From: Spiroplasma clarkii
GTDB taxonomy: Bacteria > Bacillota_I > Bacilli_A > Mycoplasmatales > Mycoplasmataceae
DNA: 64,000 nucleotides
Direction: 5' to 3'
Assembly (NCBI RefSeq): GCF_002795265.1
Contig: NZ_CP024870.1
Span: 186,001 to 250,000 of the forward strand
Both the position numbers and the translations under genes were made by a program. Positions 3,022 through 10,979 of the stretch are shown piece by piece. Every line of letters begins with the position of its first letter. Positions within the stretch are counted from its first letter, which is position 1. The notes under the pieces were generated by a model. It did not search any database. It saw nothing but the letters and a program-made list of their open reading frames with translations, and was not told the origin of the DNA.

Positions 3022-5097
3022 ATGTACGTTAATCCATTTGAAAGAATGCGTAAGAAACGTGAAGACGACCAAAAACAAAAAGTTGAAGTCGAAAAAGAAC
3101 GTGAAAAATATGCAAGACTTAGTGCCCAAATGGGGTTCACTCAAGATAAAGGTGTCATGCCATCATTTATTAAGAGCCTAATTGGTGAAAAGAATCAAAA
3201 TGCAGTACCACCATTTGGACCTGGAATGACTCCAATGCCTCCAAGTGAAGCTAGCACACCAGCTCCAAGTCAGAGTCAAAGTTATCCCAACTTTAACACT
3301 GCACCAGCACCAAACTTTAATCAAAGTCAACCTCTGACACCAAGATTTGAAAATCAACCTCCAGCATTTGCTCAACCAGTTAACTTTAATCCTGAGCCAA
3401 AGCAGTGACAAGATCCAAATCTGATGCCTCCAGTTAACTTTAATCCACAACCTCCAATAGTTTCACCACAAAATAGTATTGGTGAAAATTATCAACAACA
3501 AAGAATTCCACCACTTGGAGGCATTGAACCAATGAGATCACCACTAAATAACACAAGTTTTAACCAAGGTCCACCAAAGTTGGACTTTAAGTCTCCACTC
3601 TCAGCACCTGAACCAGTAGTGCCAAGTGAAATAAAAATCACTCGTCCTGAACCAATTCAACATGAGCAAATGACTTACAAGAATTTTGCTGAGGCATTAA
3701 ATACAAACACTTTAACAGGTCAAGTTTACGCAATAGTGGCTAACAGTGATGAAAATATGCTTAAAGAGCTTTTAAACTTATTACCAACTGGTCAACAAAT
3801 CCAGATTGATGCTCAAGAAGTTTATCAATATACTGCTCCAGACTTATTTTTATTAAAAAAAGCCATTAACTTATTGCCACTATTATCACTTGATGATAAG
3901 CGAGTCTTGTGAGAAAAAACCTCAATCTGTTTAGCAGCAACTGAGTATGGTAAAACAGATTCAGAATTTGATCAAATAGTGGAAGAAATTGGTATAACTG
4001 ACCCAATTGGTTTAATTGCAGAAGAGTTTAACACAGCTCTAGGAGCCTATGGTTTAGACAAAATTGCAGTTCCAGTCATTATTGAGAACTTTGATAAGTT
4101 AGAACTTTCTGAAATCACACCAATCTTACAATTTATTTATGAAGTTTTTGTAAGTATTCCAACTTTGAAATTTATAATTCAAATAAGTTCAGAAATTTTA
4201 CAAGAGGCTAAAAAATTTGAAATTGTTAATCAAGTTTTGATGAAAATTAGTAGTTTTATTAGTGATAAACCAATTCTGATTATGACCGAAAGTGTTAAAG
4301 AACCAGAACAAGGTTACTTTGAGATACCTGGAGAGGACAATTTTGAAACAGAACTAGATTCATTAACTCAATTTGTTCAACCTCAAGTTGCTCAACCAAT
4401 TCCAAGTCAAGAAGTTTTCCCAAGATCATTTGAATCACCAAGTGATTTAAATCAAGTCACTTTTGCAAGACCATCAAGACCTGAACTTTCTGGGATAACT
4501 CAAAGTAGTCCACTGCCAGATTTTGCAAGTCAACAAGAGATGCTTGTTCCAATCAGACAGCCAAACATGAATCAAAACTTGAATCAATTTGAAAAGCCAA
4601 TGCCATTCACTAGTCCGCCGGTACAACCAACAATGGGGTTCCAACCAGGACAGTCAATGCCAGCAATTCACAACAAAGAAAGCTTGTTGCAAAATGATAT
4701 TAGAATCAGAGTTGATCTAAATTTACAAAGACAAGCCAATGAAATCGCTTCAAAAGAGCGAGATGAAGAACAAGAACGTATTGATAAAATTATGGATGTG
4801 GGCTTCAATCCTGAGATACTTGCAGATGAACCAGTTTCTGAAGCACAGTACCAAAATCCACAACTAAATTTCTTCACAAGTCAAAAATGAGAAGAACATC
4901 CAGGTCTAAGAACACCAAAAATTGAAATAGACCCAAGAAGTCAAGCTGAAATAGAACAGCGTTTACAACAATTTGGTAATGCTTTAGAGCAAAATCAAGC
5001 AATTAACATTCAGAACAATTTTGCCAAACAAAATCAGGCAAATCAAAATACAAATGTTATTAAAATTCCAGGAGTACACTGGTCAGATTTAAAATAA
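3022..5097 (+). CDS. Large Pro/Gln/Asn-rich protein of unknown function (691 aa)
   Basis: Not recognised. Read through TGA=Trp codons at 3406, 3910 and 4888 to TAA at 5095-5097. No signal peptide or membrane segment is seen, so probably cytoplasmic. Order: basic charged N-terminus (MYVNPFERMRKKRED, about 35 residues); a disordered P/Q/N-rich segment to about residue 215 containing the near-repeat QPVNFNPEPK / PPVNFNPQPP; a helical, globular-looking region (about 217-427) with leucine-rich helices; a second P/Q-rich segment; and a charged C-terminus with a short predicted coiled coil (QRQANEIASKERDEEQERID). It uses at least one TGG for Trp near the end. The next gene follows 13 bases later with its Shine-Dalgarno overlapping this stop. 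Such architecture resembles mollicute cytoskeletal or attachment scaffold proteins, but that is only analogy. Confidence 0.85.
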
Positions 5098-5110
5098 AGG
5101 AGGCAAAATT

Positions 5111-7513
5111 ATGTTTACATTTCTAGTAATTGCAGCATGAATCTTTGTGATTACAGCTGCCCTGCTGCTGGGATTTCTTGCAGCACTCCCATATCTTGGG
5201 GGATTAATGTTTTCAAATGACTTTATGTTAAAAGTTATCATTTGATTAACCAACCAACCATTTGCATTACCATTCTTTAGGGTAATCACAGTTGAAGGAC
5301 CAACTCAACAATTTGGTGAATTAGTGACTACAGGAGGTTGAAATGCCTGAGTCTTAACACCAATTGGTATTATGAATTCAATTGGAACAGAAGGAATTAA
5401 CCCAGATTACAGTCTGGGAAACTTACAAGTTTTTTCAATTATGGGAGCATTAGGAGTAATTGCAATCACTTTAATTGCTGTAGCAATCTCAGAATTAGTG
5501 AGATTGAAAAAGAAACAAAAAATTTCAAAACCATTTACAAAACTTATCTTAATTTTATTCCCAATTTGTGGAATGTTATATGGGCAAGTAATTGTCTTAA
5601 TTGCATCAGGGTTATTATTAACAGCATGAATTTTCTTAGAAATTGTCTTGTTTGATGCAGAAGCAGTCAGCAATTATGCTGAAGAAAGAAACTTGATCAC
5701 AATCTACCATGAAGAGAAAAAATTTGAAAAAGAGGTAAATAAAGAGGGAAAGTTAATTGGCAACATAGATTTGGTAACAGTAAAAAAACGCCAAGAGCAA
5801 AGTATACTGGACCAAAATGAGAGAGCAAATCAAAATTCTAGTTCTATGTTGCCAAAAGGATCATCAAAATGAAAAATTAAATATGAAATCTTAAATGAAA
5901 AAAAAGCACAACTAGTGGCTTTGGATGAAAAATTACAAGCTACAGTATCAGTTTTGAATTTAAATGAAAAATATGAGGAAATCTGGTCTTACAATCGACT
6001 AGTTAAAGCAATCAACGAGATCACTGAGCAATTAGGTTTAGGTGATGAAGAGAAAGTTAGTGAATTTGATATGACAAGAAATTCAAGAATTTCAGAAGAG
6101 GAACTTGCAAAAATTAAGAAAACAAAAAAGTATTCAGCCTGAGAAAAAGAGTATAAAGCTCTTGGCACTGAAAAAGATAGTTTTTCAAACAATTTAGCAA
6201 ACCTAAAAGAAAGTAAGAAATTGAAAATTGTTGAAAAACTGAATAGTAAAATCAAAAAACTTAATGAGCTTGGTAACAAAATCGGTTTATCTCAAGATTT
6301 TGATCTAGACTTCATCTCAATTGATGACACTTTTCTAGGAACAGGGTCAGATATTACTAAAACTACAGATTTTGGTGATGAAATCAAACCAATGCCTAGC
6401 ATGACAAATTTCCCACTAGAAGAGTCTGGTGGACAAGAAGTTTTTCAATCACCAATGGTGGGAGATGTTGAAGCTGAAGCCAGTGAAATCTTTGCTGAAT
6501 TAAATCAAGTTGAAAAAACTTCAAGTTCAGAAGTTGAAGATATCCAAGCTTTTGCTAATTTAATTGCAACTCCACCAACTATTAAACAAACTCAAACTTA
6601 CACACCTCATGTTGAAACTAAAATTCATAATGCAGATCCCTATGTTGAACAAAGACTTAAATTAGCAATTGACATGAATGTTGCTGAATTAATGCCAGCA
6701 AGTTCACCATTGATAGACACAGATATTACTGGAATTTATCAAGATCTAAACTATGAACAAAAAGATTACAGTTATTTATTGGATGGAGATGTTAAAAATG
6801 AAGCAACTCCTGAAGCAACTCCAGCAGCATTTGATTTCACAACCTTTACACCAAGTTTAGAAACACCAATTGTTCAACCTGAACCTGAGGTTAAACTTTC
6901 AAAAGAAGAATTTGATGAACATCTAAAAGCACGTTTAGAAGTAGCAATTAACATGGATTTAGATCAACTTCCAACAACAGAACAGTCTGTTAATGCAGAT
7001 CGTGAAATTATTTACAATGATATTAACTTCCAACAACCTGACTTGCTTGCAAGTTCAACAATCGAAACTACTTTGACATCTAGTGTTGAAAAACCAACAA
7101 CAGCAAGTCCGTTTGGATTCACAATTCCAAACTTCAGTGAAGCTAGTCCTGAACCAGTACTTGCACCAACACCATTAAGTGCACCAGAGGTAAGTGAAAA
7201 TATTGCAGTACCATTCCAAATGGCTAGTTTAAATATTTCTGAACCAGTACTTGCACCAACATCATTTTCAACAGAAGTTTCAGATCAAGATATTGTTAAA
7301 GTCATTAATGAAAGAACAAATTTCTTAGACAGTAAAATTTCACAAATTGATGTAAAAATGGTAAAACTTGAAACTGTTGTTGAACAAATTAATGTTAAGT
7401 TAGAAAAAGTCTCAGAATCTGTAGAAGAAATTAAGAACTCTACATCTCCAAAAACTTTAATTGCAACTTTAACAAAAAAACATGCCTATAATAAGACTGA
7501 AACAAATAACTAA
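5111..7513 (+). CDS. Membrane-anchored coiled-coil repeat protein of unknown function (800 aa)
   Basis: Not recognised. ATG 5111 follows AAAGGAGG, which overlaps the preceding stop; TGA codons are Trp throughout. The first 185 residues hold about four hydrophobic segments (residues 1-35, about 105-130 and a long one or pair at about 150-185) separated by short loops. The remaining 615 residues are soluble: a charged helical region (about 190-400) likely to form coiled coils; an acidic/Pro-rich region with two copies of a 41-42 residue repeat (bases 6644-6769 and 6923-7045); a second small repeat, EPVLAPT, twice; and a C-terminal coiled coil (about 730-775) with regular hydrophobic spacing. 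It is co-transcribed with the 691-aa protein and ends at a strong terminator. A membrane-tethered partner of that protein is the simplest inference. Confidence 0.85.
6644..7045 (+). repeat. Internal 42-residue repeat pair in the 800-aa membrane protein
   Basis: Repeat A (6644-6769) begins VEQRLKLAIDMNVAEL and repeat B (6923-7045) begins LKARLEVAINMDLDQL. Both continue with an acidic stretch to IYQDLNYEQKDY and IYNDINFQQPDL respectively. Periodicity is 279 bases. Similarity is at protein level and the DNA has diverged, so the duplication is old and maintained. Confidence 0.8.
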
Positions 7514-7534
7514 TTAGTTTTATTAACAGCCTTT

Positions 7535-7563
7535 AAAAACTACTTATTAAAAGTAGTTTTTTT
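7535..7563 (+). terminator. Intrinsic terminator after the 3022-7513 operon
   Basis: An 11-bp stem (7535-7545 with 7551-7561) around loop ATTAA, ending in T-rich sequence. It closes the two-gene operon. The gap 7514-7814 holds this terminator, about 80 bases with no signal I recognise, and the conserved promoter/leader of the following gene. Confidence 0.9.
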
Positions 7564-7669
7564 GTTTTCGAAAAACTTGAAAGAACTTCAGTAAAAGAGG
7601 ATACAAAAATGCTGAAAAACATGTTTGAATCAAATTGTAAGGAACAAAATAAATTATGTATTTATTTAA

Positions 7670-7814: not shown

Positions 7815-8222
7815 ATGAATCTGAAATTAAAAATAGGAGAGATATTCCTTATTATTGCTGATGCAGATATCAAAATGCTACTTGAAAAATTAATCGACAG
7901 ATTTGATGATATACTAGTTAAAGAGTACAAAAGACTTGAGAAAGTTTTGACCAGAAAGGAAAGAAAAATGTTTAAAAAAACTATTGATGCAACCAAAAGG
8001 GAACTAAATGTTTTCAATTTTGATGATGTACCAGCAAGTTGTCAACAATTTGTTGATGAGGCAATAGAAAGAACCAAAAAAGAAATGGAAGAATTGATGT
8101 TTAAACAACTTCAATATTTTCAAAAACGTGAAGAGGAATTTAAACAACGAGAATTAATAATGCAAGCAGAAATAAATGAATTAAAACAAGAAATTATGGA
8201 ACTTAAAAAATTAATAAATTAA
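7815..8222 (+). CDS. Small coiled-coil protein of unknown function (135 aa), intact copy
   Basis: Not recognised. N-terminal about 25 residues are amphipathic to hydrophobic (KLKIGEIFLIIADADI). A basic region (TRKERKMFKKTIDATKREL) and a short conserved middle with one Cys (CQQFVDEAIERTKK) follow. The C-terminus is a long, highly charged coiled coil (FQKREEEFKQRELIMQ, then heptads to KKLIN). No TGA or Trp codon. It is the intact member of a tandem pair; the downstream paralogue carries a stop codon. An internal ATG at 7969 behind a GGAAAG element could give a shorter form, the same site that would be needed in the broken copy. Oligomerising or structural role is a guess from the coiled coil. 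Confidence 0.8.
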   Translation: MNLKLKIGEIFLIIADADIKMLLEKLIDRFDDILVKEYKRLEKVLTRKERKMFKKTIDATKRELNVFNFDDVPASCQQFVDEAIERTKKEMEELMFKQLQYFQKREEEFKQRELIMQAEINELKQEIMELKKLIN

Positions 8223-8459: not shown

Positions 8460-8993
8460 ATGAATTTAAAGTTAAAAATAGGGGAAGTATTCCTTATTAT
8501 TGCTGATGCAGATATCAAAATGCAATTTGAAAAATTAATTGATAGGTTAGATGATATACTAGTTAGAGAGTAAGAAAGACTTGAGAAAGTTTTTACTGGA
8601 AAGGAAAGAAAAATGTTTAAAAAAACTATTGATGCTACCAAAAGGGAGCTAAACGTCTTCAATTTTGATGACATACCATCAGACTGTCAACAATTTGTTG
8701 ATGAAGCAATTGAAAGAACCAAAAAAATGATGGAAGCACAGATGTTTGAACAACTTCAATATTTTCAAAAACGTGAAGCAGAATTTGTAGCACGTGAAGC
8801 AGAGTTCAAAGCTCGCGAAGCAGAATTCAAAAAACGTGAAGCAGAGTTCAAAAGACGCGAAGAGGAATTTAGACAAAAAGAACTATTAATGCAGGCTGAA
8901 ATAAATGAATTTAAAAAGCGAGAAATAATAATGCAAGACCAAATAAGTCAATTAAAACAAGAAATTATGGAGATTAAAAGCTTAATAAACTAA
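8460..8993 (+). pseudogene. Second coiled-coil paralogue, interrupted by TAA
   Basis: Paralogue of the 7815 gene. Starting at the equivalent ATG (8460), the frame is open for 37 codons and then hits TAA at 8571-8573, where copy A has TAC (Tyr). TAA is not reassigned in this code. The frame after the stop stays open to 8993. Translation may restart at ATG 8613 (preceded by GGAAAGG), giving a 126-residue protein that keeps the basic region, the conserved CQQFVDEAIERTKK and a longer coiled coil. The coiled coil is expanded by five tandem heptads, each 21 bases. It is either a decaying gene or an N-terminally shortened active one. Confidence 0.78.
8772..8876 (+). repeat. Five tandem 21-base repeats coding for heptads
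   Basis: Units start at 8772, 8793, 8814, 8835 and 8856. Each codes R-E-(A/E)-E-F plus two variable residues. The DNA units differ by a few bases. Copy A has only one or two such heptads at this point, so the array expanded after duplication. Confidence 0.9.
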
Positions 8994-9148: not shown

Positions 9149-9850
9149 ATGAAACAAAAATTATTAAACAACATTAGTGAGTATATAACTTGAGATAATT
9201 ATGAACAACAATACCATTTAAATGATGGGGTTGAACTGAATCCAACAAATATTTATTTAAAAAGATTGAGTGAATCTTTAGTGGAATCTAGGTCAAAAAT
9301 TAAAACCACAAATGATGTTCTACTACAAGAGTATAAATATGCAGATAATATCAAACCAGTGATTGTAGAAAATGCAATTAATCGCTTAAATTGTATTAAA
9401 ATGCAGATTTTTCATAGCATCAAAAATAAGAAGGGACAAAAAATAGTCTTTATCGAAGGGGAATGCACCAACAAAGACCATTTAGCTGCCACAAAAAGGT
9501 TTATTACTGAGATAAATAATTTTTGTTATAAATATGATATTAGTAAAATTATTTGTGATCAAACTTTGCTTTACTTAACAGAACAAGCTGAATTTATTGG
9601 TCATTTGGATTTAGTATTGTTCAATAAACAACACATTTACCAAATTGAATTAAAAACAAGTCGAGTTAATTATCTTGAAAAATACTGTGCTCAGGTTTTT
9701 TTAAATAGGTTACTCTTAGAAGATACTAACCAAATCAAAGTTTCAGAAAGTTTTATTTTGAACATTTTTGAGCAGCGCACTATTTTAAAATGTGATAGCT
9801 TAGACAAAAAAACAGAGCACAAAATTAGGTCTCTGTTAAGAACATCTTAG
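9149..9850 (+). CDS. PD-(D/E)XK nuclease-like protein (RecB/Cas4-type fold)
   Basis: 233 aa, no relative recognised by name. The C-terminal half carries the order typical of PD-(D/E)XK nucleases: GHLDLVLF with Asp about 154, IYQIELKTS with Glu about 167 and Lys about 169 (the ExK pair), then a Tyr/Gln helix (KYCAQVF, Gln about 182), as in RecB-like motifs. The N-terminal half is helical and unrecognised. One TGA (9191) is Trp. The start is uncertain: ATG 9149 has no Shine-Dalgarno and lies 1 base after a TATACT box at 9142-9147; TTG 9266 is a later in-frame alternative but would cost 39 residues. It converges on the 9861-10979 gene with a 10-base gap. Role in DNA repair or defence is inferred only from the fold signature. 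Confidence 0.7.
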
Positions 9851-9860
9851 ATGTTTGTTT

Positions 9861-10979
9861 CTAAAATTTAATGATTTTTGGGTACTTCTCTCTTAATTTA
9901 GTCTTTAAGGTTTCATAACCAAGCTCCTTATATTTGACTTGATAGCTTTTCACAGCTTGGTTGCGTACTTTGTTTTGTGAATTGATAGCAATTATGATAA
10001 AACCAATCAGAATAAAACATGACAAACCAACCAAGATTTTTAAACCAATATTCATACTGACTTTATTTTCAAGATAAATTCTGTCTGCTTTTGATTTGAC
10101 CAATTCTTTTAATTCCTTAATTGCTCCAGGATCTGTTTCTTTGCGAAGTGCATCCCTTAGAAATGCCTCAATAAAGTAGAGTTGGAGAGCAGTCAACCCA
10201 TAAAAAATAGTTAAATCTGCAATAGGTTCAGGTTGTTTAACAATTGGTCTAGGTTTTAATTCTGGTATGAATGCTGGTGGAACTTCAACCTCTTTTGGTT
10301 TAGGTTTAGGAATCTCAATATAGGTAATATTTTGATTTTGTACTGGAATTTCAACTTTTGGTGTAGTAATTACTGGTGGTGCTTGGGGAACCTCTTGTTG
10401 AACAGGTTTTGGCAGATCAATTACAGGCTTAACAGCAGGTGTAGCCACTGTTGGGCGAGGAGTTCTTTTTAAACTAACATTTAAATTTTCTCGCTTTGGT
10501 TGAGTTTTTGGGTCAAAATCAAGCTTTCTACCAGTGGCTTTCCAATCATTATCAATTAAATCTTCAATATTTGATTGTTTGTGATCTCCAACAAAGCTTG
10601 GATTGGGTTTTGGTGGTGATTTTGTAGCCTTTTTAACAAAAACTAAAGTATAGTTAGTTTCTCTTTCAGAAAGGCTTGATCCTTGTGCTTGAATTTGAAT
10701 ATTATCCTCTAAAAATAATTGTAAGAGCACATTCTTTAAAGTTGGATTAGCAATTAATGCACCAGGTAGTGTATTATAGAGTTGTTGCACACTAATAGTG
10801 AGACTTTTTTGAATAGCATTTAAGAGATCTTCTTTGGCCTGTTGGTACTGAACTGAATTGCGATCAGTTGTAAAATTTGGACCCACTGTATTGGTGATAC
10901 CTCTTTCTTTTAAAGCATTACTGCGACAATAATCTGCTCATTGTAAGAAGTTTCTTGAATTACTTTCTCCTCAAATCAT
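9861..10979 (-). CDS. Pro-rich protein with a single membrane segment, unknown function (372 aa)
   Basis: Not recognised. The start at 10979 is chosen because it follows GGGAGG and adds an N-terminus reading MIWGESNSRNFLQWADYC with two TGA-encoded Trp. Residues about 1-130 look folded (helix plus strands ending TLVFVKKA). Residues about 135-265 are basic and Pro/Val/Lys-rich and disordered. After a helical segment (IFYGLTALQLYFIEAF), a single strong transmembrane helix (LVGLSCFILIGFIII) lies about 55 residues from the C-terminus, followed by a basic tail. It is divergently oriented from the 11066 gene over an 86-base spacer and converges on the PD-(D/E)XK gene. Confidence 0.8.

Follow-up and report, generated by a model that had tools for sequence, protein, structure and literature searches.

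A conserved two-gene unit of Spiroplasma clarkii as a candidate component of Spiroplasma cell architecture

Two adjacent genes of Spiroplasma clarkii, encoding a soluble protein (P1, 691 aa) and a membrane-anchored protein (P2, 800 aa), are real genes that constitute a conserved two-gene unit, and the pair is a strong candidate for a part of the Spiroplasma cell architecture that has yet to be described. The unit lies in a stretch of 64,000 nucleotides that was analysed as a whole (hereafter the window). The most economical model is one in which P1, as a dead NTPase, docks on membrane-anchored P2, and we put at roughly one half the probability that the two form a spiroplasma-specific, membrane-anchored cytoplasmic scaffold that organises the MreB/fibril ribbon or the polar dumbbell. 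Computation supports the fold of the P1 core, the loss of its Walker motifs, the anchoring and topology of P2, the linkage of the two genes and their phyletic range. The initial annotation of this locus was right in its observation and is partly supported in its interpretation as a cytoskeletal, motility or attachment scaffold: P2 is scaffold-like and membrane-anchored and the range of the pair lies within the actin-cytoskeleton lineages, whereas the predicted cytoplasmic location of the P2 tail speaks against attachment.

The two-gene unit and its surroundings

Both genes are open reading frames under genetic code 4 on the + strand. The first in-frame ATG of P1, at position 2977, is unlikely to be its start because homologues begin at the ATG at 3022. 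The features of the unit, with the evidence for each, are as follows.

3022-5097, +: P1, soluble (code-4 open reading frame; homologues in 40 of 60 family genomes, with P2 adjoining in 39)
3022-3174, +: P1 N-terminal motif MYVNPFERMRKKRE..., with a helix at residues 5-36 (alignments; model)
3652-4314, +: P1 core, a P-loop NTPase fold of diverged KAP/AAA+ type that lacks Walker A (hhalign, predicted model, motif check)
4672-5094, +: P1 C-terminal conserved helix and terminal tryptophan motif (alignments, model)
5098-5110, +: 13-nt gap between P1 and P2 with a strong ribosome-binding site, AAAGGAGG (aaaggagg) (sequence)
5111-7513, +: P2, membrane-anchored (code-4 open reading frame; homologues in 39 of 60 family genomes)
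5111-5653, +: P2 membrane domain, four predicted transmembrane helices (hydropathy, charge; low-confidence model helices)
5654-5755, +: P2 juxtamembrane helix (FDAEAVSNYAEERNLITIYHEEKKFEKEVNKEGK) (alignments)
5891-6319, +: two P2 helical-hairpin modules, residues 261-317 and 336-403 (profile matches, E 9e-4 and 4e-10)
6635-7045, +: two P2 short repeats of ~45 aa, residues 509-553 and 601-645 (profile count)
7301-7510, +: P2 C-terminal coiled-coil-like helix, heptad-like (alignment; homologous region in P3, a separate gene of other genera, E 1e-6 to 1e-7)
7536-7568, +: terminator-like hairpin closing the unit (10-bp stem, then T's; -7.9 kcal/mol, z -3.4)

The hairpin was overlooked by a consensus terminator scan because of its low GC content. 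With P1 and P2 as queries, scans of Pfam, NCBIfam, PHROGs and PADLOC gave no significant match, and a PDB sequence search with the profiles of both returned chance matches only. No homology was found between the P1 and P2 profiles, the viral contigs scanned with P1 yielded no relatives, and ARAGORN reported no tRNA or tmRNA across the entire 64-kb window.

Several neighbouring genes were recorded in their own right. Tandem paralogues of 135 and 126 aa (7815-8222 and 8613-8993) have a largely common N-terminal part and charged coiled-coil tails, with family matches at chance level only. A 233-aa protein at 9149-9850, which gives a weak Cas4-type nuclease match (NCBIfam, 6.9e-5), is encoded close to the pair in 18 loci, representing most of the genomes in the window's genus. 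The second most P/Q-rich open reading frame of the window encodes a 372-aa proline-rich protein with a C-terminal membrane helix (9861-10979, - strand), which is found near the pair on the opposite strand in 17 of 40 compared loci. In 36 loci (for example, 6231-7646 of locus L149), a conserved multi-span membrane protein of 430-490 aa without a Pfam family is encoded just upstream of tsaC-P1-P2; it is a possible third component of the system, and does not adjoin the pair in the genome of the window.

Fold of P1 and topology of P2

P1 has the highest P/Q content of all open reading frames of at least 250 aa in the window (19.8%; median 6.9%), and these residues are concentrated at positions 56-217 and 430-550, flanking a non-P/Q core, just as the initial annotation had described. 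The start of the N-terminal motif is conserved in most homologues, the short Citri-type P1 included, and the C-terminal helix is present where P2 has short repeats (Apis-type genomes and one metagenome-assembled genome (MAG)). Neither a signal peptide nor a transmembrane helix was found in P1. Judged by profile alignment and predicted model, the core, which spans about residues 217-429, is a diverged P-loop NTPase domain of the KAP/AAA+ type, so that the first impression that neither protein is recognisable no longer holds for P1. The profile and structure checks that had been proposed for this core gave a KAP match and RdrA. With hhalign, the match to the KAP profile reached 93% probability (P 3.2e-7) and extends from near the first strand to past Walker B; reversed or column-shuffled profiles scored at most 19 bits, as compared with 56.6 for the real match, and a DnaA control gave no match. 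The KAP match was obtained separately from Citri-type, Apis-type and other P1 homologues (52-84%), and independently built alignments gave 90% (P 1.6e-6). An earlier, poorer KAP alignment, with which the later ones agree in register, gave only 14%, and thus the result hinges on alignment quality; the Pfam model itself (PF07693) does not match P1. The AlphaFold2 models were built from a two-sequence alignment (the window and one Spiroplasma MAG), and that of P1 exhibits a core pLDDT mostly of 55-85, with blocks up to 85. Its top PDB match is RdrA (Z 12.3, 199 residues, rmsd 4.0), followed by ORC/Cdc6-type AAA+ domains (Z about 9-10), and the KAP profile's own best PDB matches are the same RdrA entries, one of which is titled 'KAP NTPase domain-containing protein'. 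No clear match to a known unrelated family emerged, as the KAP match provides a fold for P1 and not a function.

The Walker A motif, GxxxxGK[ST], is absent from all P1 homologues, and Walker B (hhhhDD and the following R) is eroded, with the first acid retained in 2 of 39 P1 sequences; these losses argue that P1 is probably a pseudo-NTPase (pseudo-ATPase), and its core is predicted neither to bind nor to hydrolyse ATP. GKT triplets in Apis-type P1 were considered as Walker A and rejected, being sited in a helical linker and not at the Walker A position.

The initial description of P2, with four N-terminal membrane segments, repeats and a coiled coil, is borne out in every element. Four hydrophobic helices are located within residues 1-181 (hydropathy; model helices); the AlphaFold2 model of P2, from the same two-sequence alignment, is unreliable (pLDDT 44), and its helix pattern alone was used. 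The loop assigned to the outside (residues ~36-103) contains 0.65 K/R per 10 aa and that assigned to the cytoplasm (~127-145) contains 3.2 per 10 aa; among homologues the inner positive loop is constant, and the outside loop is hypervariable in length and sequence (roughly 28-77 residues). On this charge pattern, both ends of P2 and its whole tail are predicted to be cytoplasmic, with the outside loop as the sole external part. The long juxtamembrane helix, which would leave the membrane on the cytoplasmic side, is the most conserved block of the protein, almost invariant and retained even in a P2 of 209 aa. The cytoplasmic modules are accompanied by a low-complexity linker, and the short repeats follow the consensus ...RxAINMDLxQLPxx...IYxDxNFxQPDL, with 1-6 copies across the window's genus.

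Conservation and proposed role

All 20 genomes of the window's genus have P1 and P2 next to each other (E down to 1e-79 and 1e-59, respectively), a recurrence that excludes chance, and their adjacency holds across five genera. Within the window's genus, the lengths of the two proteins co-vary after phylogenetic contrasts (r 0.69, p 0.0014, 18 genomes), and no significant covariation was found in 14 control comparisons with genes of the same region, most of which vary little in length. The earlier view that the two proteins belong together is supported. The accompanying argument, that they must matter because the genome is reduced, is weak: at 1.56 Mb, this genome is the largest in the sampled genus, and conservation is therefore the better argument for importance. 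In genome G019, P1 and P2 share a single frame of 1708 aa; this is weak evidence because it rests on one base in an A-run, and the joint frame may be a frameshift or sequencing artefact.

The architecture of the pair varies among genera. In the genus that we take to be the Citri clade, P1 has shrunk to about 330-340 aa, in which the core is preceded by the N-terminal MYINPFERMK motif and followed by a short tail. P2 has no short repeats there and is in most cases 775-1026 aa long. In two genera, P2 is split into a membrane gene of 209-220 aa and a neighbouring separate gene, P3, and a genome of a third genus (G140) has P1 and a P3-like gene, with membrane P2 not detected there. P3 proteins range from 565 to 3280 aa and have in common with the P2 of the window at least one of two elements, the helical-hairpin module and the C-terminal coiled coil. 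Given these splits, the minimal conserved unit is the P1 core together with the P2 membrane domain and its juxtamembrane helix. Two further traits were noted outside the window's genus. Behind the short P2 of loci L140, L141 and L142 lie giant open reading frames (2305-3280 aa) with repeated LFDxNGxPVFDxxGxxL segments, which begin with P2 helical modules and, in two of the three, have a P2-like coiled coil near the end. Several P2 or P3 proteins (L143, L149, L154) terminate in a CxxC-type motif (CPYC, CPLC, CSFC), which the P2 of the window lacks.

Of 60 family genomes, broader profiles detected the P1 core in 40 and the membrane part of P2 in 39, the genera being the same for both; neither was detected elsewhere among 320 genomes of the order, where faint P2 matches are weaker by orders of magnitude. 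A P2-like motif in G187 and G288, which belong to another family of the order, proved to be a chance match in DNA gyrase B, and a P2 scan of named genomes gave one match only, in a Spiroplasma MAG. On the strength of this relative, of genetic code 4 and of several MreBs, the organisms with the pair are taken to be Spiroplasma. All 40 family genomes with P1 have at least five MreB hits, whereas members of the family that lack the pair show only one to three hits, weak and of the actin-fold type, a co-occurrence that amounts to one or a few events on the tree. The exceptions are two genomes (G162 and G192; 0.70 and 0.81 Mb) that have 4-6 MreB yet neither P1 nor P2, and thus the presence of these MreBs does not strictly call for the pair. 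Nearly all swimming helical spiroplasmas have retained the two genes side by side; their non-helical relatives lack them. The genes lie outside the mreB locus and, in most genomes, follow the housekeeping operon prfA-prmC-tsaC.

The pair is restricted to lineages with the Spiroplasma actin cytoskeleton, and a cytoskeletal role is for that reason the favoured interpretation; range and topology together point to cell architecture, away from metabolism or surface adhesion. We infer a physical interaction of P1 with P2, its site, and a cytoskeletal or polar role for the pair. P2 would be held in the membrane by its four helices. Its long, mostly disordered tail, which bears the repeats, the helical-hairpin modules and a coiled coil at its end, would reach into the cytoplasm. 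The degenerate KAP/AAA+-type domain of P1, having lost its nucleotide chemistry, would now act as a docking module that probably binds P2 beside the membrane, the invariant juxtamembrane helix being the likeliest site. Multivalent contacts would be contributed by the P/Q-rich arms of P1 and the repeats of P2, and the assembly would serve as a tether or organiser of the MreB/fibril ribbon or of the polar dumbbell.

What the internal structure of Spiroplasma consists of is known only in part (PMC5289999), and the dumbbell, or tapered pole, is attributed to 'unknown proteins' (PMC9710875). In syn3B, MreB4 and MreB5 alone achieved helicity switching; reconstitution with actins alone reproduced neither the tapered pole nor continuous kink propagation, and the proteins responsible were described as unknown (PMC9710875). 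Since these two actins suffice, P1/P2 would not be needed for helix formation itself, and, together with the two MreB-bearing genomes devoid of the pair, this favours a role at the pole or in anchoring the ribbon over one as a motor. More tentatively, and at appreciably longer odds than the scaffold as such, P1 and P2 (with P3 where P2 is split) may account for the missing 'unknown proteins', as builders of the polar dumbbell or as the tie between ribbon and membrane, in the form of a dead KAP NTPase with a split-off membrane partner. If so, a KAP NTPase would have become a catalytically dead structural module whose membrane part is supplied by a partner. The Triton-insoluble fraction of S. 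eriocheiris comprises 16 proteins, among which the sole Spiroplasma-specific hypothetical is SPE-1201, of 769 aa (PMC5289999). By size and map position, P1 and P2 are not obviously among the 16 listed (PMC5289999); SPE-1201 was rejected as P2 on these grounds, P2 being 985 aa and located near 71 kb in the genome that we take to be S. eriocheiris, and a P2 homologue is probably absent from that fraction. The pair bears on the question of how spiroplasmas anchor and polarise the swimming ribbon. Membrane-anchored, restricted by lineage, present almost throughout the genus and located outside the mreB loci, it provides two named genes for this question.

Other roles can be weighed against this distribution and topology. 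That P1/P2 is a membrane-bound division or chromosome-segregation scaffold, acting in septum placement or nucleoid tethering and not on the ribbon, would fit the ORC/Cdc6-type folds that rank next after RdrA and the position behind a housekeeping operon; it is rather unlikely, as all other genera of the family and the rest of the order divide too and lack the pair, the range of which tracks the MreBs far better than division genes would. We rate slightly lower a membrane or polar complex for sensing or signalling, in which the outside loop of P2 would receive the input and the pseudo-NTPase would serve as hub. Chemotaxis without a known signalling system, such as a two-component system, has been reported in Spiroplasma (PMC5289999), and hypervariability of the loop would suit such a role, but the loop is short, no recognised ligand-binding domain was found in it, and the bulk of the mass is cytoplasmic, scaffold-like sequence.

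The two remaining alternatives are highly improbable. Repeats and low-complexity arms recall mollicute adhesion proteins in style only, and a surface adhesin or host-attachment protein is disfavoured by the charge pattern, which places the P2 tail and both termini in the cytoplasm, by the lack of a large extracellular region in P2 on charge and hydropathy topology, and by the absence of a signal peptide or transmembrane segment from P1. An anti-phage defence module is equally doubtful: P1 is related to KAP, and KAP NTPases occur in defence proteins (PifA, RdrA), yet PADLOC matched neither P1 nor P2, the catalytic motifs of P1 are gone, and the pair, far from being patchy, occurs throughout the genus, with a locus that is mostly syntenic.

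Comparison with known systems

Cytoskeleton proteins of the Mycoplasma pneumoniae attachment organelle have acidic and proline-rich domains. They resemble P1/P2 in joining low-complexity, P/Q-rich segments to coiled coils, although the likeness is one of style only and no sequence relation was found. The P1 core is closer to the KAP family of P-loop NTPases (PF07693; Kidins220/ARMS, PifA), with which it has in common the fold, the order of strands and helices and a helical insertion between the second strand and Walker B; membrane association is a further likeness of the pair. KAP proteins often have transmembrane helices inserted in the NTPase domain, whereas those of P1/P2 reside in the separate partner P2. 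P1 also differs from the family in lacking Walker A in all homologues, in its eroded Walker B and in being missed by the Pfam model. The best structural match to the P1 core, RdrA (PDB 8fnt, 8hr8), belongs to the RADAR defence complex. RdrA has kept its Walker A/B and its sensor residues and assembles into a heptamer, with a large lobe at the C-terminus (PMC9994260); P1, in contrast, has no Walker or sensor motifs and is flanked by disordered arms. Finally, SPE_1229 (the '7th protein') is, like P1/P2, Spiroplasma-specific and discussed as a partner of the swimming cytoskeleton. It is a predicted extracellular lipoprotein of the Citri clade only, encoded in the mreB locus (PMC10074174), whereas P1 and P2 occur in Apis-type, Citri-type and other genomes and are predicted to be cytoplasmic or membrane-spanning.
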